Shown piece by piece: positions 4,641-27,036 of a stretch of 31,951 bases of DNA. Position 1 is the stretch's first letter, and every line of letters starts with the position of its first letter. Below the pieces are notes generated by a model. The model ran no database searches and was not told where the DNA came from. It was given only the letters and a program-made list of their open reading frames with translations. Source of the stretch: a virus. The stretch lies in IMG/VR virus record IMGVR_UViG_3300031601_000013, positions 1-31,951 of that record; one strand, 5' to 3'. The position numbers were made by a program, and so were the translations under genes.

Positions 4641-4850
4641 TTATAAATTAAACCATTTGTTCCTAGATCTATATACAAATTCACCATTTTCTTGACAGCA
4701 ATAAGTAGCATTTTTACCCTCTAATAAATCTATACCATCTTTGATTAAATGACACTTACCCTTATATTCATAATAATAACATTCTATATAATTTATGCTG
4801 AATAAATTTAATTTATTTATTTTTCTTCTTGTTAATATATTAATATTCAT
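4641..4850 (-). CDS. Hypothetical small Cys/Tyr-rich protein
   Basis: 69 aa with four cysteines (C24, C33 and the pair C51-C52), many tyrosines and lysines, and a basic N-terminus. It starts in an ATGA overlap with the Cro-like gene, with GGAG just upstream, so the two are co-translated. No family is recognised. It belongs to the short regulatory operon that begins at the tandem-repeat promoter near 5081. Confidence 0.65.
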   Translation of the reverse strand: MNINILTRRKINKLNLFSINYIECYYYEYKGKCHLIKDGIDLLEGKNATYCCQENGEFVYRSRNKWFNL

Positions 4851-15305: not shown

Positions 15306-15719
15306 TCATTTTCTATACTCAACTATATCACAATATTCATTAGAGTTAACTAATTTAAAACCAATAAGTTTAACTAAATATAGCGATGCTCTATATACTG
15401 CATGGTTATAAACATGTTTCGTCTGTATGTGTGACAATAAAATAGAATTCTTAGGTACTCTATTCATTAATTCTTTTGCCATAAACATTAATTTATTAGA
15501 ATTTTTACGTTTACAGGCCCAAACACATAACCACCATGTAGTGCTTTCACTTCTATCAACATTATATACTACAACTAAAGCTATTACTTCTTCATCTACT
15601 ATATATATATTTCCCATATCGGGTATTTTATCAGTTAATTCAGCAGTTTTAAAATGTTCTATATCTAGTGATTGTAAATAGTATTTAGCAAAATCTTTAT
15701 GAGTTTCATTAATTATCAT
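15306..15719 (-). CDS. T7 gp13-like, GNAT-fold protein
   Basis: 137 aa from the ATG at 15719, which has GAGG 8 nt upstream inside the end of HNH gene 2; an ATG four codons earlier lacks a site. The pattern (NIYIVDEEVIALVVVY, ESTTWWLCVWACKR, a helix, then SLYLVKLIGFKLV) is the GNAT-like fold of podovirus gp13 proteins. T7 gp13 is 138 aa and sits just before gp14-15-16, as here. T7 gp13 is needed for particle assembly; enzyme activity is unproven. The HNH gene overlaps its start, so translation is probably coupled. Confidence 0.65.
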   Translation of the reverse strand: MIINETHKDFAKYYLQSLDIEHFKTAELTDKIPDMGNIYIVDEEVIALVVVYNVDRSESTTWWLCVWACKRKNSNKLMFMAKELMNRVPKNSILLSHIQTKHVYNHAVYRASLYLVKLIGFKLVNSNEYCDIVEYRK

Positions 15720-16260
15720 ACAGTACCTCATTTAACTTATTTGGTAGTTTATTTAAAATAATATAGTTATCATACGCGATATATGCCTCTTTTTCTGTTG
15801 CATAGTAACCTATATGAGTATTTTTACCATTCAAAGTAGATATTGCTACAAACTTACTACGACCACTATTATACGAAACTCCTCTATAAATGCTTGTGCC
15901 ATTCTTTCTTATTCTTCGATTTAACGCATTGACTTGATTTGTCACGAAATGACAGTTTGAAGGGCTGTAACCTTTCTCATTATCTATGCGATCTATCTGT
16001 AATCCTTGAACCCAGTTTTCATTTAACCAAGGTCTCATTCCGTTAAGTGTTAACCATTCGTCACACACTGTGATACCTCTACCACCATAGTCTTTATAAC
16101 GTAGATTGTTAGTCTTATAACATCTTGACATTATGGAATGATAAATATTATCTCTAAGCCTGCATTTTTTACACCTAAGTTTATGACCATCGTTTGAATA
16201 TTTATCTTTATGAAACTGATTTAATTCTTGAGTGATTTTACATTTAGTACATTCTTTCAT
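15709..16260 (-). CDS. HNH homing endonuclease with AP2-like C-terminus (copy 2)
   Basis: 183 aa. Zinc-ribbon-like cysteines are C4, C7, C30 and C33 (CTKC, CKKC). Then come YGGRGITVCDEW, the HNH core GLQIDRIDNEKGYSPSNCHF with VNALNRR, and the AP2-like domain (TSIYRGVSYNSGRSKFVAIS, then ATEKEAYIAYDNYI). It is closely related to copies 1 and 3. It lies free-standing between large terminase and the gp13-like gene and overlaps the latter by 11 bases, supplying its ribosome site. It has its own promoter and leader C, with AAGGAT 8 nt before the start. Confidence 0.93.
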   Translation of the reverse strand: MKECTKCKITQELNQFHKDKYSNDGHKLRCKKCRLRDNIYHSIMSRCYKTNNLRYKDYGGRGITVCDEWLTLNGMRPWLNENWVQGLQIDRIDNEKGYSPSNCHFVTNQVNALNRRIRKNGTSIYRGVSYNSGRSKFVAISTLNGKNTHIGYYATEKEAYIAYDNYIILNKLPNKLNEVLYDN

Positions 16261-16292
16261 AACACTATCCTTGTTATTGTATCTTTTTGAAA

Positions 16293-16375
16293 TATAGAAG
16301 AGAGATGATAAGTCTCTTGTTCAGTCGCTAAACCTATCTATAATTATATTATATCATATAATACTTCTCTTGTAA
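16293..16375 (-). promoter_or_regulatory. Promoter plus 50-nt structured leader of HNH gene 2 (leader C)
   Basis: Promoter: TTACAA (16370-16375), 16 bp, TATAAT (16348-16353), preceded by TGA (the terminase stop codon), so also an extended -10. Exactly 5 nt later stem P1 begins: TATAGA (16337-16342) pairs with TCTATA (16293-16298). TAGG follows the first strand. Inside are a possible GTT/AAC mini-stem and the hairpin AGAGA-CTTATCA-TCTCT (16301-16317). Leaders D and E share this plan with different P1 sequences. Confidence 0.65.
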
Positions 16376-17574
16376 CTCATTGATCTTCTGGTAGATGCTA
16401 GATGACCATCTTCTATTGATTGAGCAACATATTGCCAACAATCGGCAGCATGACAACTCCAATTATGTAATGGTTTTTTGCCAAATACTTTATCACGTTC
16501 ATTATAATCTCTACAATAAGCGGATAATGAATCAGTTAGATGTGTGGCTTTCTTGTCAATAATAACTTTACTTAGATATACTTTAGATAAATTAATAAGA
16601 GCATCTTTATTACTACTTCTTCTAAGAACTACTACATCTGCTCCTGCATCTCTAAATGAATCTTTTGCTGTGGTAATATGAGTTTCACCTACTTGCCTCT
16701 TAACAGAATCATGGGGTAGTATACACCTACCCATAATAGCATTATTCTTCATCGTAAACTCTTTGATTAAACTATAATACCACCCATAAGTATAAACTTC
16801 TGTTGTTGGAGTATGATAAAACACAACTCTAATAGTACCAGTAATTTCAACTTGAAATCCTATAATAGGTGTAGCATCACTACCTAAATCGAAAGCATAG
16901 TGTATAGGTAAATTATGTATAATATTAACATCTTGTATTCTTTTATCATCATCAATAGATTTCATCTCATGAGCATAATATAATGTTTCTGAATTTAAGT
17001 ATGGTTCACAATAAAACTCACGTTTGATAGAATCTATTGTCATATTTCCATCTACACGACAATTCTCAACATCTTCATCACTTATATATCTTATATTTTC
17101 ATCATCTTTTAAAGTTTCAACTGTTTCTAATCTAGTTATCCATCTATCATCATGTTTTAAACTGTTAAATAATCTCCATGAAAAATCATAACTGTTAGGT
17201 GTTGTATTAATAATAACCCATGATTTAGATTGCGTTATAACTGGCTGTAGCACTTGATATACTTCATGGCTACGATAAAAGGCAAACTCACTAAATACCA
17301 CACCACGGAGATTAATACCCCTTAGGCTATCGGCTCTAGTTGCACCGGCTAGATAAATAACAGAACCATTAGTAAGAGTGATGACTTTCTCTTGATTATT
17401 TGTACTAGCAATCAATGACTTAGGTATTATTTCTAAGAATCTCGTGATTTCTGGATGTTCTAATTCATTATCGCGGTTAATTATTACACCTCGCCAAATA
17501 ACCTTAGATGCTTGTTCACGATCGGGGAGTATATAAGCATAGTTACCAACATTTTCTAAAGCATAATCAACCAT
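16354..17574 (-). CDS. Large terminase, C-terminal part (after frameshift)
   Basis: 406 aa as read from the internal ATG at 17574, but the protein really continues from the 84-aa ORF upstream. The true coding frame can be followed back through FCFCIM and GKDVF into the Walker A. Walker B is GVVFSEFAFY. The nuclease domain shows YAFDLGSDATP, ILPHDSVKRQ and HNWSCHAADCWQY, the Asp-containing metal sites of podovirus terminases. As one protein (16354-17821) it would be about 488 aa, a normal size. It cuts and packages the DNA through the portal. The ATG at 17574 has no clear role of its own. If the frameshift is real, packaging would need ribosomal shifting. Confidence 0.9.
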   Translation of the reverse strand: MVDYALENVGNYAYILPDREQASKVIWRGVIINRDNELEHPEITRFLEIIPKSLIASTNNQEKVITLTNGSVIYLAGATRADSLRGINLRGVVFSEFAFYRSHEVYQVLQPVITQSKSWVIINTTPNSYDFSWRLFNSLKHDDRWITRLETVETLKDDENIRYISDEDVENCRVDGNMTIDSIKREFYCEPYLNSETLYYAHEMKSIDDDKRIQDVNIIHNLPIHYAFDLGSDATPIIGFQVEITGTIRVVFYHTPTTEVYTYGWYYSLIKEFTMKNNAIMGRCILPHDSVKRQVGETHITTAKDSFRDAGADVVVLRRSSNKDALINLSKVYLSKVIIDKKATHLTDSLSAYCRDYNERDKVFGKKPLHNWSCHAADCWQYVAQSIEDGHLASTRRSMSYKRSII

Positions 17575-17821
17575 AATACAAAAACAGAAAACGTCCTTGC
17601 CGGGCTCTCCTCGGTAGGTGAAGAAAAATTTTAGCCTGCAATGATGCCTTAAAGAGTTCTAAATATTCTTGCTGATAGTTTCTTAATTTAAATGGAACGA
17701 TAGGTTTATCATTAAATGTGCAAAATTTATCTTTGAAGAATTTTAATTTACCTACGATATTTGTTTTAGCTAATTCTAATTCTTTCTTTTTAATGAGAGT
17801 TTTGATTGATGATATATTCAT
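17567..17821 (-). CDS. Large terminase, N-terminal part (ends at a +1 frameshift)
   Basis: 84 aa. The end of the intact part reads FKLRNYQQEYLELFKASLQA, then KIFLHLPRRA, the adenine/Walker A approach of phage terminases. After RRA the frame reads RQGRF and soon stops; dropping one base of the GGG at 17602-17604 gives RRAGKDVF, the expected Walker A. So this is the first 77 or so residues of a 488-aa terminase. It starts directly after the HNH gene 3 stop (TAA-ATG), with GGAT upstream. Sequencing error, disabling mutation and +1 programmed shift are all open. Confidence 0.85.
   Translation of the reverse strand: MNISSIKTLIKKKELELAKTNIVGKLKFFKDKFCTFNDKPIVPFKLRNYQQEYLELFKASLQAKIFLHLPRRARQGRFLFLYYG
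17602..17604 (-). other. Frameshift site inside the terminase Walker A
   Basis: The transcribed strand reads GCC CGG CAA GGA. Removing one C gives GCC GGC AAG GAC (Ala-Gly-Lys-Asp), the expected catalytic motif, and joins two ORFs into one full-length terminase. The zero-frame codon met at the slip point is CGG, probably rare in so AT-rich a genome. Confidence 0.8.
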
Positions 17822-18385
17822 TTAAAATCCATTTATTTGATGAGTTAAATTATTAGCTATTACATACTTATCATAAGTTATTGCAGCGAGTATAGGATTA
17901 GCATGATAACCAAGGGACTTCTCCTTACAATTGCCAATACTTATTTTGCATCTATATCTAACTACTAATTTGTTGCCAGCTCTTTTTTCCTTAACCATAG
18001 AAACTCCTCTGTAAGGAAGTCTTAAATTTTTATGCGCCCTTTGATTTAAAGCATTAGCAGAATTATTTATAAATCGACAATTATCAGGACCATATCCCTT
18101 ATCATTATCTACCCTATCAATTTGTAGTCCTTTAGTGTAGTTATCCTCTAACCATAACATGAATATATCTTTATTATGCCATTCTTTACATACAGTAATT
18201 CCCCTGCCACCCCAATCTTTATACCTAGACGAGGTTTTATTGTAGCATCTAGTCATCATATTAGCATAAACATTGTCTTTATTGATACAGTCTTTGCATA
18301 TGGATCTTACGGTCATGGTTTTAGAAGATAATATACTAAAGTATTTTATTGATTTATCAACCTTACATCTTGAACATTCTTTCAT
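17822..18385 (-). CDS. HNH homing endonuclease with AP2-like C-terminus (copy 3)
   Basis: 187 aa from the ATG at 18385, chosen because AAGGAG lies 8 nt upstream; an in-frame ATG eight codons earlier lacks a site. Zinc-ribbon-like cysteines are C4, C7 and a CKDC pair. WGGRGITVCKEW and the HNH core GLQIDRVDNDKGYGPDNCRF are followed by ANALNQR, then the AP2-like domain (PYRGVSMVKEKRAGNK onward). It is the most diverged of the three copies (Lys for Asp in CKEW, Gln for Arg in ALNQR). It lies between portal and large terminase and touches the terminase start. Leader E provides its promoter. Confidence 0.93.
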   Translation of the reverse strand: MKECSRCKVDKSIKYFSILSSKTMTVRSICKDCINKDNVYANMMTRCYNKTSSRYKDWGGRGITVCKEWHNKDIFMLWLEDNYTKGLQIDRVDNDKGYGPDNCRFINNSANALNQRAHKNLRLPYRGVSMVKEKRAGNKLVVRYRCKISIGNCKEKSLGYHANPILAAITYDKYVIANNLTHQINGF

Positions 18386-18415
18386 ATCAACTCCTTGATA
18401 GAATCCCATAGAGAG

Positions 18416-18480
18416 TTGTAACAGGTGTTGAGATAATACACTTTTCGGGAGCTACCCTAGTTACAATAATTATTATACCA
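18416..18480 (-). promoter_or_regulatory. Promoter plus 51-nt structured leader of HNH gene 3 (leader E)
   Basis: Extended -10: TGG-TATAAT (18472-18480); no good -35. Exactly 5 nt later P1 begins: TTGTAAC (18460-18466) pairs with GTTACAA (18416-18422), a perfect 7 bp. TAGG spans the end of the P1 junction, then a mini-stem GGG/CCC, an A-rich junction, and the hairpin GTGT/ACAC (18425-18441) with TTATC in its loop. Same order as leaders C and D. Confidence 0.65.
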
Positions 18481-18484
18481 TATA

Positions 18485-20107
18485 TTAAATACCCATACCT
18501 GTAATACTAGTATTCTGGCCTAATTGGGCCGGGTCTATTGGTGTTCCCTGTCCTAATGATGATGGTTGGAGATTACTATCTTGTTGCTGTTGCTGTTGAC
18601 CACCACCACTTTTAGCCTCTTGTTGTTGAGCTGCTGCCTTATGTGCAGCATCTGTAATATTTTTCACTTCTTGAGGACTATTTAATACAGAATAAGTAAC
18701 TTTCAGGTTTTTAGCTAAAGCATTAAATGTTTCCTGCTGATTTAAATATATATTTCCCGAACCTTCACCAAGTATCTGCGTTGATAATGTAGCTAACTGT
18801 AAAATAGAATTGACATTATCTTGTGCTTGTATATCTACAGCGGGACTATCGAACTTAAAATCATATAATTTCGATTCAGGTGAATCTATAATTCCTCTTT
18901 CTACTAATATAGCAAAAATAGAACTCATTAAACCGCCTAATGTTTCATTTGCAACCCTAGCCAAATCTGCAACTGATTGCCTTTCTTCATCTGCTTGTCT
19001 ATAACCTACCTCTGTAGCAGTAGCATGGGGAGTATTTTCAGGCATTCCTAAGGGCATAACATTAAAGAACTGTCTAATCTTCTGTTCCAAGTCTTGTATC
19101 ATTCCTTGTACAGCTTGAATGTTTATCTGCCATTGAATAGGTTGCACTGGCATTCTACCATCTGCTATTAATTCAGTCGGGTAGATGTTTCCACCCTCTG
19201 TTCCAAAATTATATGGCAAATTATCAGGTACTAATAAATCTGGGTTAGCAGAATACTTAATATATCCTTTAATACTTCCAGTTATTTCATTAAGGTACTC
19301 AATATCTTCTAGTATTTGTAGTATTATTCCATGCCCTCTAGCCTCACCCGGTCGTAAAGTTTCATTAACTAATATTAACTGTCTCCATGATGAAAAACTA
19401 ACACTTAAAGGCTCGCTAAATTCATCTTCAAGAAATTGTATATAGCAATATTTTTTATATTTTGTTTCTCTTAAATCTAAATAACCACATGTTATATTGT
19501 ACTCACCCGCAATATCTTTACCTTTTGCAATTTCAGGATTTAATATATTAAGATCTCTCCAGTTAATAACCTTTTTAAACCATGCATTAGTATTCATTGG
19601 ATCATCACTGAATTCAGGCATCAGAGTAATACCCGCAACATTTTTAAATACTATTGGTCTTTCCTTACTAGGACTATCAATCCATATAGCACCACAACCT
19701 ATGTTAAGGTCTAAAAAGAATGATTTAGCTATACTATGTAGGTTTGATTTATCTATAGCATTAAAAACCTTTAAAGTATGTTGTTCTTCGTAGTGATCTT
19801 CTCCAGTTTCATCATTAGCCGAATAGATAGAACCCCATCTTCTATTAATAGGTAATAAAAGACTATGAAGTTTGTTAGCTCTCGAATTAGAACACCATTT
19901 AGGAGTAGAGTTATATATATTCTTATTAAGATTCTTTCCTGTATCATTATATCCGTATAATACGTTAAGGCCATCTGATAAAGGAGCACACAACTTAACA
20001 GCTCTTATAAGAGTATTTACAAATCTTTGATTCATTTGGTAAGCTGCGTTATACCTTAGATTAAAATCTAATAATTCATCATCATTAAACTTAACTTTAT
20101 CTTTCAT
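18485..20107 (-). CDS. Portal (head-tail connector) protein
   Basis: 540 aa, the usual length for podovirus connectors. AYQMNQRFVNTLIRAVKLCA and WCSNSRANKLHSLLLPINRR match the N-terminal region of T7 gp8-like connectors (xxRRxxNxLxSxLxPPxxRW). PLGMPENTPHATATEVGYRQ matches the conserved 'ATEVxxR' segment that lines the tunnel. The C-terminus is a Gln-rich tail (six Gln in a row, then SNLQPSS). It forms the dodecameric ring through which terminase packs DNA. It follows the scaffold gene, with AAGG 9 nt before the ATG. Confidence 0.9.
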   Translation of the reverse strand: MKDKVKFNDDELLDFNLRYNAAYQMNQRFVNTLIRAVKLCAPLSDGLNVLYGYNDTGKNLNKNIYNSTPKWCSNSRANKLHSLLLPINRRWGSIYSANDETGEDHYEEQHTLKVFNAIDKSNLHSIAKSFFLDLNIGCGAIWIDSPSKERPIVFKNVAGITLMPEFSDDPMNTNAWFKKVINWRDLNILNPEIAKGKDIAGEYNITCGYLDLRETKYKKYCYIQFLEDEFSEPLSVSFSSWRQLILVNETLRPGEARGHGIILQILEDIEYLNEITGSIKGYIKYSANPDLLVPDNLPYNFGTEGGNIYPTELIADGRMPVQPIQWQINIQAVQGMIQDLEQKIRQFFNVMPLGMPENTPHATATEVGYRQADEERQSVADLARVANETLGGLMSSIFAILVERGIIDSPESKLYDFKFDSPAVDIQAQDNVNSILQLATLSTQILGEGSGNIYLNQQETFNALAKNLKVTYSVLNSPQEVKNITDAAHKAAAQQQEAKSGGGQQQQQQDSNLQPSSLGQGTPIDPAQLGQNTSITGMGI

Positions 20108-20124
20108 AATTATACCTTAATGTA

Positions 20125-20739
20125 TTAAACTAGTGACTTCCACTTTTCAAAGGCTGCTTTTTTTTCAAAGTGTGTTCCACTTCTTTCAGCATCTTTTAAT
20201 GCCTTATAAGCATCTTTCTTTGATTTTGATTTATCTGTATTGTGATATGAGCTAGTTACATTAGTGCTAGTATTCAAGCTCTCTTGATACTTTGACTCAT
20301 AAAAAGTTACGTCGTCCTTACTTAATAAAGAAATAACCCTATCAGTAAAACCTATCTTATCTTTCATGAATTTACTAACATTTTCACTAATATCGAATTT
20401 ACTATCTTCTTTTTCTTTGTCGCTAACCAATTTAGCATCGTATTTATTTTTTGCATATTTATTAAACTGTGACTGATTAAGTCCTAACTTTTTAGCATCA
20501 TCACTAGTTAACTTAAGAAATTCATCATCAATATTTTCAATAGAATCTTCTTTTAAGTAGTTTTCAGGAACTTCAAAATCAGCATTATACTTTTTTTCCC
20601 AGTTCTGTTTTTGACTGTATGCAGTTTCTAATTCTGTATAACTTTTTTCTAAGTCACTTTGAGTATTAAATCTACCCAATATCTTCTCACTAACTACTAT
20701 ATTCTCATTATCGATAACATTATCATCTGTATCTAACAT
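20125..20739 (-). CDS. Capsid scaffolding protein
   Basis: 204 aa, highly charged and helical. KILGRFNTQSDLEKSYTELE (about 19-38) is the typical 'xFKSxEDLxKAYxELE' start of T7 gp9-like scaffolds, and ADFEVPENYL and AKKLGLNQSQFNKY follow as in that family. The C-terminus is Lys-rich (SKSKKDAYKALKDAERSG), the usual coat-binding end. It directly precedes the portal and overlaps the 72-aa gene by TAATG. Scaffold is absent from mature heads. Confidence 0.8.
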   Translation of the reverse strand: MLDTDDNVIDNENIVVSEKILGRFNTQSDLEKSYTELETAYSQKQNWEKKYNADFEVPENYLKEDSIENIDDEFLKLTSDDAKKLGLNQSQFNKYAKNKYDAKLVSDKEKEDSKFDISENVSKFMKDKIGFTDRVISLLSKDDVTFYESKYQESLNTSTNVTSSYHNTDKSKSKKDAYKALKDAERSGTHFEKKAAFEKWKSLV

Positions 20740-20957
20740 TAATTATCTCCTTTGTTTAATGTTGTTTTAACTATAGTATCAAAATATGATATTAATCTTC
20801 TTCTACCTTCATCAATAAATATGTCTTTATCTGTAGCATCTATATTACTAATAAACATATCATCTTTTAATAATCTTAACACTTCTTTGCCATCAACAGT
20901 ATTAAATAAAGTAAATATCTTTGATTGAAGTCTTAATTTTGTGTTTTTATCTAACAT
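20739..20957 (-). CDS. Hypothetical protein upstream of scaffold
   Basis: 72 aa, charged and mostly helical, with no motif recognised (MLDKNTKLRLQSKIFTLF at the start, FIDEGRRRLISYFDTIV later). It is translationally coupled to the scaffold gene (TAATG), with AAGGG before its own ATG. Position suggests a head-assembly helper; nothing in the sequence shows it. Confidence 0.65.
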   Translation of the reverse strand: MLDKNTKLRLQSKIFTLFNTVDGKEVLRLLKDDMFISNIDATDKDIFIDEGRRRLISYFDTIVKTTLNKGDN

Positions 20958-20988
20958 GTTAACCCTTATTTTAATATATAGTGATACT

Positions 20989-21264
20989 TTATTTATAAAA
21001 TTCTATTACTTGATATGCTAAAACAGCATCAATAGATCTTACTCCCCAGTGAATAGTAACCTCTGTTGGTGCTGTTATTGATGAGCATACTGACGGAACT
21101 ACATACTGTGATACTGCTACGCTACCCGACATTGTATAGCCTTCTATTATAATGGAGTGTTCCATATCGACAGGAAACTCTAGTGTCTTGGTAAGTTCTA
21201 AATGTGTAGCTACTCCACGTTGAACTCTTTTTATATTTCCACCAAATAGTGTTGAATAGTTCAT
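20989..21264 (-). CDS. Small structural protein between fibre and scaffold
   Basis: 91 aa from the ATG at 21264, which overlaps the fibre stop as TAATG with TTGGAG 10 nt upstream. Beta-rich with few charges (KTLEFPVDMEHSIIIEGYTM, then SVAVSQYVVPSVCSS). No family is recognised. It may be a small tail or head surface protein; this is inferred from the operon only. Confidence 0.6.
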   Translation of the reverse strand: MNYSTLFGGNIKRVQRGVATHLELTKTLEFPVDMEHSIIIEGYTMSGSVAVSQYVVPSVCSSITAPTEVTIHWGVRSIDAVLAYQVIEFYK

Positions 21265-22823
21265 TATATTATTCTCCAATTGTTATTTAAAAATCTGAAT
21301 GTTACTGTTATTGACTTTCTATCTAATACAAGTGTTTCATTAATAGCTAACCCCATGATAGATTCACCTGTTGAAGGCACTAAGGTGAGATTGGCAACAA
21401 TCCAATTGTCTTTAATATCAGTAACAGAGATAATATCTCCATTTTGGCCCACAGGAAAAGTCACCGGGAATGAACCTATTGCTGATGTATCGCACATTAT
21501 AAAATCACCAGAAACAGCTGTATACGCAGATGTTTTCATAAGATAGTTAAGTGGAAGTATTTTAAAATCTGCAATAGGATAATTTGCTATAGCAACATTA
21601 GATAAATCTCTATTAGCTATTTTAGAATCCACTGATTCCTTCTTATAATTAGACCCAGTTGCAAACATAGTACTAGAATCACCCTGAGCAACCCCCCTTG
21701 ATACAGTTATTTGTGTGTTAGGTGGTACTTCCGGTGATATAGTTAGATAACTAGGGACTGCAAGTGTAGGATTATCAACAATAGTAACAATATATGAATA
21801 TGTAGACCCAGTAGTTTCACCACCACCACCAGTATATGCACTAGGTGACAATATTAATCTACCATCAATATACAATGTAAAACTATTATCTAATACATCT
21901 ATCCATGGCTTATTAGGGTTAGATTGATATTCTATCAAATCTATTCTTGTTGTTGGACCTTCTGCATCAAATACGAATAATTCATCTATTAATCCACTAG
22001 TAGACGTTGCTGCTATGCCTGAAAGTGCAGAATAATGTTTAGCACTAAATCCAATGTTTCCAAAATCATCAGTGATTTCTAATGGTGATACGGCCCATTC
22101 TTTAGACCAGTGAGCAGATGCAAGACCTGATACAACATTAGTTAATGTTTTATCTACTACTACATTTCCGTTAACATCAATTTTTAATATATCGCCATTA
22201 ACTGGAGTATGAATAGCATTACCCGCTAATTCTGCTGTTATATTAGTATTTACAGCTGATGCATTAACTTGGCCAACAACTGTACTACTTATATCTTGTT
22301 CTACTTCATTAACAAAAAGATCATAATCTTGTGCTACAATTTCAGAACCCGATCTTCTCCAAAAAGATTTATCCTTAAGGGGTGATAATATATTGCTATA
22401 ATCTATATCAGATTTATTTTCATTTATGTTATAACGTAATGATGATGTTTTGAAATTCTCATTATCTTGTTCAATAGTTGATGATTGTTGATTATATGAT
22501 TTATTCAAATTATCTTGATTAAGTGGTGTTGTATTAGAAAAATTAACAGTTACGTTAGTTTTACCATCTGGTGTTATAGTTATTACTGAATCTAAGACTG
22601 GAGCAGTGTTAAATATAACATTTCCTTTTGAAAGACTGGCACTAGGATCTGTTAATGTAACTATAAATGTATTTGTGGCTATTATGTCATCATCTTCATT
22701 AGCACTATTGCCAGATAATGTTTTATAAACATTGACGGATCTACCTTGTACTATATTAAAATTAAACAAAAAGCTTTTTGTCACTCCATCTGCTACATAC
22801 TGAGTTATAAACTTATTACTCAT
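21264..22823 (-). CDS. Tail fibre protein
   Basis: 519 aa from the ATG at 22823 (ATGA overlap with the previous gene, GAGGAG 12 nt upstream); a GTG nine codons earlier is less likely. FITQYVADGVTKSFLFNFNI is the T7-gp17-type N-terminal domain that attaches the fibre to the tail. The middle is repetitive and Ser/Thr/Asn-rich, with a helical part near SSTIEQDNENFK. The C-terminus (TAVSGDFIMCDTSAIGSF, then TGESIMGLAINETLVLD) is a beta-rich tip domain found at the end of many phage fibres, probably the receptor-binding end. No peptidase or depolymerase motif is seen. Confidence 0.8.
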   Translation of the reverse strand: MSNKFITQYVADGVTKSFLFNFNIVQGRSVNVYKTLSGNSANEDDDIIATNTFIVTLTDPSASLSKGNVIFNTAPVLDSVITITPDGKTNVTVNFSNTTPLNQDNLNKSYNQQSSTIEQDNENFKTSSLRYNINENKSDIDYSNILSPLKDKSFWRRSGSEIVAQDYDLFVNEVEQDISSTVVGQVNASAVNTNITAELAGNAIHTPVNGDILKIDVNGNVVVDKTLTNVVSGLASAHWSKEWAVSPLEITDDFGNIGFSAKHYSALSGIAATSTSGLIDELFVFDAEGPTTRIDLIEYQSNPNKPWIDVLDNSFTLYIDGRLILSPSAYTGGGGETTGSTYSYIVTIVDNPTLAVPSYLTISPEVPPNTQITVSRGVAQGDSSTMFATGSNYKKESVDSKIANRDLSNVAIANYPIADFKILPLNYLMKTSAYTAVSGDFIMCDTSAIGSFPVTFPVGQNGDIISVTDIKDNWIVANLTLVPSTGESIMGLAINETLVLDRKSITVTFRFLNNNWRII

Positions 22824-24907
22824 ACTATTATATTCTCCTCTATTAGCCACGCTATTTTTTGAATGTTTACTGGGTATGGGGTATCTTGCACAACCTCTAT
22901 GAAAAAGTCTTGTTTAGCTCCTCTTGCAAAGCTGAATCTATGCGTATTAGTGCTTAGTTGTGGGTAAGCTGATTGCGGTGTTAATTGATCAGAATATAAT
23001 AATCCAGTTACTTTATCATTTACCTTGAAGTTAAAAGATTGAAAGTACTGTATCCATGCTTGAGATACTTTTCTAGTTTTAAAACTTCCTGATGTACCAC
23101 TATACAATGGCATAGTTTTCAATGTAGCTACAAACGATTTTCCCACCCTAATATCACCAATAGTACTACTATCAACTAATACATAATATTTATTTAATGA
23201 GGTGTCTAAAATTGCCGGATATTCTCCTAAATAACTATAATTAGTATTCCCAGATACTATAGTTTTAACACTTACACCAATTAATTCATTAGCTACTATA
23301 TCAGAAGTAGGATAATCCAAATATATCTTACCATTTGTAACAGTAGCATTTAACCCATAATCAAAATCATTAATTAATGATGGTGTAATTATTCTATTAG
23401 TATTTGAAAATAAATATAATCTATTATTCAAAACACTTAAATCTCTTATGGTTTCAGTACCAATTGTTGATATATTAAACTGTGAAAATCCGTGATTCTG
23501 AAATTGTAAAGATGTTGAATATATACATATAGAACCATCTACATTTAATAAAGCTAATATCTGATCTTGGTTGTTATCAATGTCATAGACAGCTGCTTTT
23601 ATTGGATGTTTTATTAAGTGTTGTGAATTACTAGATATAATACCCGCTGATACTGATTTGTCTTGTTCTATAATCTCAACTAATGCTTTTCCGTTTGATG
23701 TTATGAAGTATATATTATTTTTATATTTAATAGGTTTCATTAATGATGATGAATAACTACTAGTTAACTGAGGAGCGAAATTACCCGGTGTTATACCAAC
23801 GTCATAACCAGTCATTACTGTTAATTGCTGTGATTCTGTGAATAAATGTAGGTTAACACCACCGAATATATGTTTAATTCCGCCACCTTCCGAATTCTGA
23901 ATAATATATACAATTGCATCAGGATCTTCACCACTATTCACATTAAAATCATTAGGTGTATTTATTTTTGACCCCGCTACTATCATAGGTAAATCAGGAG
24001 TATTTGCGAACCATAAACGGCCTTGAAAGAATGAAGTTAATGAAGGATATACCTTATCACCATTAATTCTATCACCCCATATTGGCTTTCTCATGCTCCA
24101 CGTAGCACCTTCTTTACTATATCCAGTACCAAATGCCTGTAGTACTGTTATAGTTATTGATTGGCTAGTAGCTGATGGATTGCTAACTGTTTTTATGATT
24201 CCAAACCCTATAGGCTGTTCAACAGTTGCACCAGTTCGACCGAATATCATTCCACCTATCCAATCATCTGTAAAAGGATTACTTCCACTAGGAAAAGATA
24301 TAGATATTGTTGACCCTAAAGGTGTTCCAGATGCTGTAAACTGATATTTTGAATAATCTATATCACCAAAATCAATACTAGGTACTACTGAAAAACCAAT
24401 ATCCTCTATAGTACTATTGGCGAATGTTACCGGATCAATAACTATTTTTTGTGGGTGTACACGTGGATGAGATATAACAATGAAATTATCAGTTGCAGTT
24501 GTATCAAAGTCCTTAACTACAGTATTAACTATTGTTGTTATTTTCTTTGTGGCAATTGGAACTTGTACCGCATCTTTGGAGAACTTTATAAGATATACAA
24601 ATGTATCTGAAGATGTTACTTCATTTATTAATATAAGTTGATACCAGTAACTATCTTTTGACCTAAAAGAGAAATGATCTATACCAATGATAGCCGTATT
24701 TAATACAATATTTTGATACTGTGTTATATAGTCAAAAGACTTTCTTTTTTGTGGTAACTGTTGACTAGATATATACATGTTATCGCATTTAGATAATGCT
24801 GTTAAATATTGTTGTCCTTGTGATGTATAATTAAATAATTGAGGATCAACCTCACCTAAACCGAATGAATCTTGTTGTACAATGCTACTCATAACTTCTA
24901 TAGCCAT
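22820..24907 (-). CDS. Tail tube/nozzle protein (T7 gp12-like, tail tubular protein B)
   Basis: 695 aa, almost entirely beta-rich. The N-terminal QQDSFGLGEVDPQLFNYTSQ and KCDNMYISSQQLPQKRKSFD match the 'fxxGevxPxLxxR.D...y..g...c.N....p.Gg' start of podovirus tail nozzle proteins. VYPSLTSFFQGRLWFANTPD is the family's 'yP....fy.qRL.fagt...p' motif. It would form the hexameric nozzle below the gp11-like ring. It overlaps the upstream gene; starts at 24907 and 24892 are both possible, neither with a strong ribosome site. Confidence 0.82.
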   Translation of the reverse strand: MAIEVMSSIVQQDSFGLGEVDPQLFNYTSQGQQYLTALSKCDNMYISSQQLPQKRKSFDYITQYQNIVLNTAIIGIDHFSFRSKDSYWYQLILINEVTSSDTFVYLIKFSKDAVQVPIATKKITTIVNTVVKDFDTTATDNFIVISHPRVHPQKIVIDPVTFANSTIEDIGFSVVPSIDFGDIDYSKYQFTASGTPLGSTISISFPSGSNPFTDDWIGGMIFGRTGATVEQPIGFGIIKTVSNPSATSQSITITVLQAFGTGYSKEGATWSMRKPIWGDRINGDKVYPSLTSFFQGRLWFANTPDLPMIVAGSKINTPNDFNVNSGEDPDAIVYIIQNSEGGGIKHIFGGVNLHLFTESQQLTVMTGYDVGITPGNFAPQLTSSYSSSLMKPIKYKNNIYFITSNGKALVEIIEQDKSVSAGIISSNSQHLIKHPIKAAVYDIDNNQDQILALLNVDGSICIYSTSLQFQNHGFSQFNISTIGTETIRDLSVLNNRLYLFSNTNRIITPSLINDFDYGLNATVTNGKIYLDYPTSDIVANELIGVSVKTIVSGNTNYSYLGEYPAILDTSLNKYYVLVDSSTIGDIRVGKSFVATLKTMPLYSGTSGSFKTRKVSQAWIQYFQSFNFKVNDKVTGLLYSDQLTPQSAYPQLSTNTHRFSFARGAKQDFFIEVVQDTPYPVNIQKIAWLIEENIIV

Positions 24908-25481
24908 GAGTTTTTACGTTAAATTGCCTAACTTTACCATTTTGGATATCGTTATTTTTAGCAATGATCACATACCTTTGATATGTTTGTGAAAACATAG
25001 AACTTAATTGAGCATTTTCTAGTAAATTCATTGATAGCTCACTAGCTGAAAGATAAGATACGGCCTCTATAAATGATTGTGGTATTTCTTCTATAGAGAT
25101 ATCACCTACTTTATATTTAACTAAAATAGTATCAATATTTGTATACAATGATTTGCCTAAAATCTCATATGAACTTGAATCTAAAGCCAAATTTATTCTT
25201 TCAACGCCACCACTATCAACAGGTTTGTAAGCCTCTATAATTTTAAAGCAATCTATAGGCACTAAATATTCATAATTAAAGGATGGATTACTAGACGTTG
25301 TAAGTCTTGCCAATTTCTTAAACTTTATAGCAAATGACCATATATGCGATTCTAATACAATCTTAATTTTAGCATCAATTGTATCGCTTATTATTTGACC
25401 CCATTCATCGCTTATGCTAGAATCTTGGTGATTTCTACCTAATAAATTATACACCCTGTTAATTATTTGTATATCAGCCAT
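24885..25481 (-). CDS. Tail tubular protein A (T7 gp11-like adaptor)
   Basis: 198 aa, the normal family length. IINRVYNLLGRNHQDSSISD at the N-terminus, ESHIWSFAIKFKKLARLTTS, YEYLVPIDCFKIIEAY and IPQSFIEAVSYLSASELSMN reproduce the gp11 pattern (helical start, 'W.F......L', 'Y.lP.d...i', 'lP..f..a...rla.ela'). It forms the ring between portal and nozzle. GGAAGG lies before the ATG, 1 nt after the small terminase stop. It pairs with the nozzle gene downstream. Confidence 0.82.
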   Translation of the reverse strand: MADIQIINRVYNLLGRNHQDSSISDEWGQIISDTIDAKIKIVLESHIWSFAIKFKKLARLTTSSNPSFNYEYLVPIDCFKIIEAYKPVDSGGVERINLALDSSSYEILGKSLYTNIDTILVKYKVGDISIEEIPQSFIEAVSYLSASELSMNLLENAQLSSMFSQTYQRYVIIAKNNDIQNGKVRQFNVKTHGYRSYE

Positions 25482-25482
25482 T

Positions 25483-25971
25483 TTAACCTTCCAGTTTATC
25501 CAGTCTTAATTTAAGTTCGTTGAGTTCAGACAGTTCATTTTTAGTTTTGATTAGATTGTTTAATGTGTTGAGAGTTGCATTGTCTAGTTCAGCCTCACAA
25601 CCATCTTCACCCATTATCTTAGAAATAATAACGCTTAACATGTCAATATTATCATCTTTGTAATCACTAGCTTTAATTTTAACTGCATTTTGTCGCCAAT
25701 GATCTTTAGTTTTAAGATAAAATATCTGTGCTGTAGTATCTCCAGACATTGCATTGTCGATCAAAGAATTAGCAATTTGCTCACTTACAGTGCTTGCACC
25801 TTTCTTATACCGTTGGAAATACTCGGGATATTCTCTAAAGATACTATACAGTGTACTTTTATTCATTCCGAAACGATCAGCAACACGTTCAATGCTTAGC
25901 GTTCTTCCTAATGTTTCAAGTGAATCTATTTGATCTGTTGTTAGATATTTCTTAGCCGTTTTTGAAGTCAT
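25483..25971 (-). CDS. Small terminase subunit
   Basis: 162 aa. The N-terminal helix-turn-helix (SIERVADRFGMNKSTLYSIF, about residues 27-46) would recognise the packaging site. RYKKGASTVSEQIANSLIDN and MSGDTTAQIFYLKTKDHWRQ match the central oligomerisation region of small terminases ('GD..a..f.lk....W'). The C-terminal coiled coil (TKNELSELNELKLRLDKLEG) would contact the large subunit. AAGG lies 8 nt before the ATG. It lies 7.7 kb upstream of the large subunit, with tail and head genes between. Confidence 0.85.
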   Translation of the reverse strand: MTSKTAKKYLTTDQIDSLETLGRTLSIERVADRFGMNKSTLYSIFREYPEYFQRYKKGASTVSEQIANSLIDNAMSGDTTAQIFYLKTKDHWRQNAVKIKASDYKDDNIDMLSVIISKIMGEDGCEAELDNATLNTLNNLIKTKNELSELNELKLRLDKLEG

Positions 25972-26009
25972 TTATAGCCTTTGATATAGTTATATATTAA
26001 TATTATATA

Positions 26010-26195
26010 CTATTTATGGTAATAATTTGGTAAATTATGATACTTTACACAGTCATCGTAACATTCTCTTGCCTCTTCTTCTGTTTCAAAAAGTCCTTGT
26101 GCAAAACTATCACCGTCTTTAACCAGAAATTTCCACTTATTCATATCTTGTAAAAAAAATACTGGTTCTATCTCTTTTCTTGTTATATTACTCAC
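26010..26195 (-). CDS. Small hypothetical protein
   Basis: 61 aa, acidic, with two Cys near the C-terminus (ARECYDDCVKYH) and aromatic residues in EPVFFLQDMNKWKFLV. It overlaps the previous gene by ATGA with AAGGAG upstream. No family is recognised. It belongs to the string of small genes between leader D and small terminase. Confidence 0.6.
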   Translation of the reverse strand: MSNITRKEIEPVFFLQDMNKWKFLVKDGDSFAQGLFETEEEARECYDDCVKYHNLPNYYHK

Positions 26196-26488
26196 TTAAT
26201 AATCTCCTTAATAGTATCATACATCATATCCAACGAGCTAAATCTAACTGTACATTCCTTGCCTAAATGCGTCAAATTCTTACCTTTGCTATAAATATTA
26301 TATGAGTACTCTGTAATACCATTTGTAGTTAGTGATATAACTTCATTACGTGGGTCTAGTTTCTTTATCATTTCTTTGCATTCTAGTAGTTTGTTGAAAT
26401 CTATATGTGCTTTGCGTATATTTTCTAATTTACCATGTTTTGGTGGTATACATAGGCGTATTGAAGTATTGTTTTTATCTATATTCAT
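26192..26488 (-). CDS. Small hypothetical protein
   Basis: 98 aa from the ATG at 26488, which follows the previous stop by one base with GGTGGAT upstream; a start at 26509 would overlap. The N-terminus is basic and the body mixed alpha/beta (RKAHIDFNKLLECKEMIKKL, then ECTVRFSSLDMMYDTIKEII). No recognised motif. Confidence 0.6.
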   Translation of the reverse strand: MNIDKNNTSIRLCIPPKHGKLENIRKAHIDFNKLLECKEMIKKLDPRNEVISLTTNGITEYSYNIYSKGKNLTHLGKECTVRFSSLDMMYDTIKEIIK

Positions 26489-26489
26489 T

Positions 26490-26696
26490 TTATCCACCCC
26501 CATATACATATACTAATTCATCATCTTTTAGTTCTCTTATATTTTCTGATATTTCTGTGACGAGAGAAGAATTAGGATAATTATAATATTTTAATTTATG
26601 ACATTTTATAATAGCATCTTCAATAGTTTCAGCTTTAATGACAATCAGTCCTGCTGTGTAATTGCACAATACATTTTCTGCAACAAATGTTTTCAT
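26490..26696 (-). CDS. Small hypothetical protein
   Basis: 68 aa with a beta-alpha-beta look: KTFVAENVLCNYTAGLIVIK, helix TIEDAIIKCHKL, then ELVYVYGGG. The 'A.t.edAi..c.kl' helix resembles small phage proteins of unknown role. It overlaps the 82-aa gene by ATGA with GGAG upstream. Confidence 0.6.
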   Translation of the reverse strand: MKTFVAENVLCNYTAGLIVIKAETIEDAIIKCHKLKYYNYPNSSLVTEISENIRELKDDELVYVYGGG

Positions 26697-26941
26697 GATA
26701 TCTCCTCGCTATTTCTGAATACTTTGAAACTTGGCATCAAATAAAATTGCTCAAAAGGACAACACATATTATCTGATATTTTTCTTTGAAATTTATACTC
26801 TTCATATCTATTTTTACTAAAACACATCGTTTTAGTAACTCTAGTTATCATATGAATTGTTTTATATCTAAGTGGTATACATCTTGGATGACTTGTAATA
26901 ACTATAGTATCACCGACTTCGACTAAATTTATTTGGTTCAT
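26693..26941 (-). CDS. Hypothetical protein, first gene after leader D
   Basis: 82 aa, beta-rich at the start (INLVEVGDTIVITSHPRC), basic, with four Cys (C21, C40, C60 and C61). VGDTIVIT may be an SH3-like small barrel, but this is a guess. AGGAG lies 7 nt before the ATG. It heads the operon that probably continues into small terminase and tail genes, and follows a structured leader otherwise seen before HNH genes. Confidence 0.6.
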   Translation of the reverse strand: MNQINLVEVGDTIVITSHPRCIPLRYKTIHMITRVTKTMCFSKNRYEEYKFQRKISDNMCCPFEQFYLMPSFKVFRNSEEIS

Positions 26942-26975
26942 AACATTTATCTCCTGTTATTTTATCTGTTGAGAG

Positions 26976-27036
26976 TGTAGCAAACGATGATAAGTCGTCT
27001 TTCAGTAATGATCCTAGCTACATCTATAGTGTATCA
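26976..27036 (-). promoter_or_regulatory. Promoter plus 47-nt structured leader (leader D)
   Basis: Extended -10: TGA-TACACT (27028-27036), where TGA is the stop codon of the 69-aa gene. Exactly 5 nt later P1 begins: TGTAGC (27017-27022) pairs with GCTACA (26976-26981). TAGG follows directly, then a possible TCA/TGA mini-stem and the hairpin ACGA-CTTATCA-TCGT (26984-26998), whose loop is identical to leader C while its stem differs. Confidence 0.65.

Follow-up and report, generated by a model that had tools for sequence, protein, structure and literature searches.

A family of phage leader RNAs that probably controls translation of the single gene behind each leader

Introduction

What a structured RNA at the very start of a phage transcript does for the gene behind it is the question raised by the virus record IMGVR_UViG_3300031601_000013, which we analysed over its whole length (31,951 bases, 30% GC; hereafter the window). 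The larger genes of the window lie on the minus strand, and its podovirus-like proteins include a head-tail adaptor, TerL, a tail protein, a DnaB-like helicase and a Sak annealing protein. An earlier, sequence-only reading had described three short structured elements at promoters in this DNA, and we recover all three on the minus strand: copy C (16342–16293), copy E (18466–18416) and copy D (27022–26976). Each begins exactly 5 nucleotides (nt) past a −10 box, and every box has a TG in front of it, a feature of extended −10 promoters. That reading offered two functions, antitermination of the kind known from the put RNAs of phage HK022, which are structured RNAs at the start of phage transcripts, and protection of messenger RNA (mRNA) ends. 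We find instead that the three copies are members of a large family of phage leader RNAs, most of which has gone unrecognised. The leader is probably a modular element that controls how the one gene following it is translated, much like a self-targeting antisense RNA.

Results

The fold was assessed with a covariance model (R1) built from 19 copies from elsewhere, the window being excluded. In the window R1 finds copy C with 54.6 bits (E 7e-16), copy E with 53.6 bits (E 1.5e-15) and copy D with 25.3 bits (E 4.6e-6; all E-values are rough), and after these nothing better than E = 3. The family plan is a three-way junction of the order P1, UA, P2, GAAAA, P3, CU, P1', in which P2 takes the form GGG-UAGCU-CCC or GGYU-UAGC-GRCU. 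All three copies follow this plan by R1, with copy D departing from it in a degenerate P2 and in two junctions (GAAAG and UU). The possible 3-bp mini-stem of the sequence-only reading is a true stem, the conserved second hairpin P2, and D alone has it in degenerate form. The A-rich stretch noted beside it is the conserved GAAAA. A search for copies sharing the P2 of D gave chance matches only, and D is therefore taken to be a degenerate copy.

Covariation points to the same structure. Among 109 distinct aligned copies, standard pairs fill 92% of pair cells against 59% after shuffling, and two-sided changes fill 514 cells, where shuffling leaves 150 and sliding the partner no more than 142, in an alignment that was fitted to the structure and so leans towards it. 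Such two-sided changes occur at all 16 pairs. Permutation of P1 and P3 gave z 24 and 19, respectively, for copies preselected for pairing, which is why the fold is better judged by the model search of the window and by the covariation count. P2 and the junctions are near invariant across very different phages, whereas the loop of P3 varies.

The position of the fold is equally constant. Across the 199 unique copies that parse into the plan, −10-like hexamers are concentrated 21 to 15 nt upstream of the UA junction (at least five of six positions match in that stretch in 113 of the 199), placing the box about 5–7 nt upstream of P1. A hexamer peak at a fixed distance indicates that the fold starts at about +1. 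Recovery of all three window copies by a model trained elsewhere, together with this peak, bears out the claim of a conserved fold with covarying stems from about the first transcript base. Downstream, the start codon mostly lies 25–50 nt past P1'. P1 with the following U-tract was considered as a terminator and rejected, the longest T-run being mostly three or fewer.

The P3 loop is complementary to two places in the leader. The first, site 1, lies directly behind P1' (z 13.6), and the second, site 2, beside the start codon (z 20.1); both values come from loop-swap permutation of 105 distinct loops, in copies that were not chosen by pairing with the sites. In 86 of the 87 copies having both pairings the loop bases involved overlap, and because both pairings take the same bases they exclude each other. 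Site 2 is itself inside the loop of a hairpin with a covarying stem, the 3' side of which overlaps the Shine-Dalgarno (SD) sequence. This ribosome-binding site (RBS) hairpin gave z 14.4 in a test anchored on site 2; an earlier unanchored version gave z 2.7 and was insensitive because the SD strand is near constant. The short distance to the start codon, taken with a loop complementary to the RBS, indicates translation rather than antitermination.

Loop and sites change together. The MATLTLKK genes, which form one family, have near-identical leaders with at least five different triplets of loop, site 1 and site 2, among them CGTTAC/GTAACG/TAACG, CTTCAC/GTGAAG/TGAAG, CTGATAC/GTATCAG/ATCAG and CTTTCAC/GTGAAAG/TGAAAG. 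At one locus in two Vibrio phages, near-identical leaders have TTCATAG/CTATGA/CTATGA in one phage and TTCGTTA/TAACGA/TAACGA in the other. The TTATC that the sequence-only reading singled out in the hairpin loop is no family motif, since no part of the fold varies more among members than this loop. Comparison of these copies establishes, at the level of sequence, the predicted fold and its promoter position, the RBS hairpin, two complementarities that exclude each other, and the concerted change of loop and sites.

Copy E links the family to a known motif. In a sensitive Rfam scan it matches RF02996 (int-alpA), a motif reportedly first described by Weinberg and colleagues in 2017, scoring 37.5 bits where the cut-off is 35.8 and covering the full length of the model (1–71), so that the fold does have a family with this plan, contrary to what had been supposed. 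Copies C and D fall below RF02996 detection in the same scan, and a whole-window Rfam scan at the default cut-off gave no match, probably owing to speed filters. The int-alpA motif has the same fold and junction sequences, and the 20-nt core of E, CTAGGGTAGCTCCCGAAAAG, recurs letter for letter in several int-alpA members from sampled bacterial genomes. It differs in that the Rfam structure line leaves the P3 loop unpaired and in its coverage: the cut-off is passed by 11 of 12 type-A viral loci and by none of the eight tested type-B loci, a type to which copy C belongs. The phage copies precede homing endonuclease, replication and antirepressor genes rather than standing between int and alpA, and no copy in the window has integrase and alpA genes as neighbours: behind two of them are HNH-type genes, and behind the third an open reading frame of 82 amino acids.

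The family is widespread. A 19-mer of type A (TAGGGTAGCTCCCGAAAAG) and a 17-mer of type B (TAGGYTTAGCGRCTGAA) are each present in at least 120 IMG/VR stretches, part of the type-B matches being chance matches in coding sequence. Cultured phages with a copy include Vibrio phage 1.198.A and Enterobacter phage Tyrion. In sampled genomes, RF02996 is found in 39 of 369 from the class of the gammaproteobacterium Arsukibacterium and in 7 of 289 from the class of a Rhodobacteraceae genome. R1 is found in 26 of 274 from the class of Arsukibacterium, strongly in one of 200 from the class of Paenibacillus, and in none of 198 from the class of Hymenobacter. The Bacilli copy (locus L457, 1488–1583, in genome G802, of the class of Paenibacillus) is a clear match with loop UUCCCG, a matching AGGGAA past P1' and a long RBS hairpin, and the family therefore reaches beyond Proteobacteria. 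The first DNA pattern gave 11 matches with a sole true copy by eye (L007), and a degenerate int-alpA pattern gave no credible copy among its matches in sampled genome contigs. Separately, the T4-like Acinetobacter phage PhT2 has the P2 core TAGGGTAGCTCCCGAAAA in its tRNA cluster (L166, 2501–2522) with no obvious P1 or P3, possibly as a decayed copy.

Homing endonuclease genes are the commonest behind the leaders. Among 138 different proteins, HNH_3 (26), HNH (15), GIY-YIG (6) and HNH_5 (5) are the leading matches in a tally in which one protein can match more than one family. Next come DUF1376 (8), which we take to be phage replication proteins, and then the antirepressor-type Rha, Bro-N, KilA-N and ANT. 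At one locus in related Vibrio phages, 1.236.O and jenny 12G5 have an empty site where 1.198.A, 1.178.O, 242E40-1 and 1.135.O have differing leader–gene units, which run against the strand of the adjacent genes. Elsewhere, three units with HNH-type genes stand within a phage tRNA cluster (L242, 700–2900), each with a different P3 loop. Judged from such sites, promoter, leader and gene act as a single unit. Within this phage group, two loci (L462 and L466, from Vibrio phages 1.265.O and 1.135.O) hold more inserted genes without a good leader match, from which it follows that the leader is absent from some cassettes.

In the window, copy C (16293–16342, minus strand) is driven by a TATAAT −10 box (16348–16353) with TG two bases before it; with the −35-like GTTACA at 16376–16371 the promoter has 10 of 12 matches. 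Its stems are P1 TATAGA/TCTATA, P2 GGUU-UAGC-GACU and P3 AGAGA/UCUCU with loop CUUAUCA, joined by J12 UA, J23 GAACA and J31 CU. The leader tail (16261–16292) has a possible site 1, GAUA, at 16283–16280 and a predicted RBS hairpin, AUAACA-AGGAUAG-UGUUAU (−2.5 kcal/mol), whose loop contains the SD and site 2, GAUAG, at 16269–16265. The gene behind it (15709–16260, minus strand, 183 amino acids) encodes an HNH/AP2-type homing endonuclease; its Pfam AP2 match (E 1.8e-6) is below the curated cut-off.

Copy E (18416–18466, minus strand) follows the TG-preceded −10 box TATAAT (TGGTATAAT) at 18472–18477. It has P1 UUGUAAC/GUUACAA, P2 GGG-UAGCU-CCC, J23 GAAAA and P3 GUGU/ACAC with loop AUUAUCUCA and J31 CU. 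Its tail (18386–18415) carries site 1, UGGGAU, at 18408–18403 and the RBS hairpin UAUCAA-GGAG-UUGAUA (−3.6 kcal/mol). Behind it is an HNH endonuclease gene (17822–18385, minus strand, 187 amino acids) between portal and terL, with 41% identity to annotated phage HNH endonucleases (tblastn). The product resembles that of the gene behind copy C at its N terminus, and the two genes (15709–16260 and 17822–18385) stand on either side of terL, where each is served by a separate promoter and leader RNA. Protein-based searches of viral contigs with the terminase and the HNH gene of this phage found no relatives. The terL gene is itself split over two frames (16354–17574 and 17567–17821) near a poly-A/T stretch (window 17567–17574), probably by an assembly or sequencing error and possibly by a real frameshift. 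We also noted that loop E (18437–18429) is complementary over 7–9 bases to the RBSs of window genes starting at 4850, 20739, 26941 and 31316; these matches to GGAGATAAT-type RBSs may reflect no more than generic SD sequence or may mark real targets in trans, and we do not claim them as targets.

Copy D (26976–27022, minus strand) lies behind a TG-preceded −10 box TACACT (TGATACACT) at 27028–27033 and has P1 UGUAGC/GCUACA, the degenerate P2, J23 GAAAG, P3 ACGA/UCGU with loop CUUAUCA, and J31 UU. Its tail (26942–26975) holds site 1, GAUAA, at 26966–26962 and the RBS hairpin AUAACA-GGAGAUAAA-UGUUAU, whose loop contains the SD and site 2, GAUAA, at 26951–26947. The gene behind it (26693–26941, minus strand) encodes a protein of 82 amino acids and no known family, with no Pfam match.

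Discussion

These results suggest how the leader may work. Transcription would start at P1 or within a base or two of it, and P1, P2 and P3 would build a three-way junction that presents the P3 loop. The loop could then form a pseudoknot with site 1 or pair with site 2 inside the SD hairpin loop, but could not do both at once. Pairing with site 2 would clamp the RBS hairpin and turn translation off, whereas pairing with site 1 would leave the hairpin open and relieve the block. More speculatively, the junction RNA, once released or acting from another copy, might silence mRNAs of the same specificity; a cassette product might then burst on entry and be shut down, as with C4 RNA and the P1/P7 antirepressor.

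The closest working model is C4 of phages P1 and P7, an antisense RNA whose specificity loop targets an antirepressor gene at its RBS (PMC5320573, PMC12197685). It shares with the present family three stems, a variable specificity loop antisense to an RBS and antirepressor targets (PMC5320573, PMC12197685), and antirepressor-type genes, the class controlled by C4 (PMC12197685), are among those behind our leaders, which favours control of translation. The C4-like complementarity of loop to RBS is found family-wide (z 20.1) and is weak in the window copies alone. C4 differs in its long P1, UUCG P2, two antisense regions a' and b' and RNase P cleavage (PMC5320573), whereas here the 5' end is set by the promoter and a single loop accounts for both pairings, using overlapping bases in 86 of 87 copies. 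The C4 covariance model (RF01695) has no match in the window and R1 has none in seven C4 loci; absent any cross-detection, C4 is an analogy and the family is not a member of it.

Several points weigh against translational control by loop switching. The transcript, translation and structure steps are read from sequence, and whether the effect is to switch on or off, like any action in trans, is what we infer from it. Dual pairing is weak in the window copies, being short and at best marginal (P 0.34 for C, not significant; 0.046 for E and 0.058 for D); the RBS hairpins are clear there, and the dual-pairing step draws on the family. The loop permutations drop duplicate loops, and some relatedness among copies stays. 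Finally, conservation of P2 and the junction beyond what pairing alone demands suggests a further partner.

Such a partner is the core of the alternative that survives best, a riboswitch-like or protein-binding sensor acting only in cis, in which binding of a ligand, or of a protein from host or phage, to the invariant P2 and junction shifts the loop between sites 1 and 2 and makes translation respond to a signal. The contrast between near-invariant P2 and junctions over very different phages and a variable loop fits this idea, and expression platforms usually work through two pairings that exclude each other. The endonuclease, replication and antirepressor genes behind the leaders, however, have no common pathway and hence point to no obvious metabolite, and concerted changes of specificity are easier to explain by pairing in trans. 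We consider a sensor of this kind rather unlikely. Still less probable is a stand-alone small RNA with targets elsewhere, placed before a gene incidentally: Rfam types RF02996 as 'Gene; sRNA', the 5' end coincides with P1 and a U-rich linker follows P1', but the start codon is mostly 25–50 nt downstream, the RBS hairpin coevolves and the U-tracts are mostly too short for a terminator.

Antitermination by a put-like RNA binding RNA polymerase shares the +1 position and a conserved hairpin and junction with these leaders, yet it is very doubtful: the best R1 hit in HK022 has E 0.99, terminators near the elements number 3 against 3.5 expected from shuffled sequence, and the pairing with the RBS is left unexplained. 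That the leader serves as a 5'-end structure stabilising the mRNA is highly improbable, since a closed stem at the 5' end would not require a variable loop complementary to two sites, though end protection is possible as a side effect.

Four points are new to our knowledge: the type-B branch, the placement at +1, the loop's double complementarity together with the RBS hairpin, and the tie to phage cargo genes. The literature searched names int-alpA only in one list of small RNAs (PMC12370729). The original description lay outside that search, and a site 1 pseudoknot may already have been noted in it.

If the leader controls translation as proposed, a shared RNA control element would stand before hundreds of phage accessory genes annotated without regulation, and the orphan Rfam motif int-alpA would gain a testable function. 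The complementarity of the loop to the RBS suggests that homing endonuclease and other cargo genes bear their own RNA switch, which would account for such genes being inside late operons without upsetting them. We put forward more tentatively that these are mobile promoter–leader–gene cassettes with one scaffold and private antisense loops, spread over phages of Proteobacteria to Bacilli, in which residents might silence newcomers with the same loop. Such a loop code, if true, would give phage cargo genes, homing endonucleases among them, an RNA-based form of immunity and self-restraint, and interchangeable loop specificities on one scaffold would lend themselves to studies of phage exclusion and to orthogonal translation switches.

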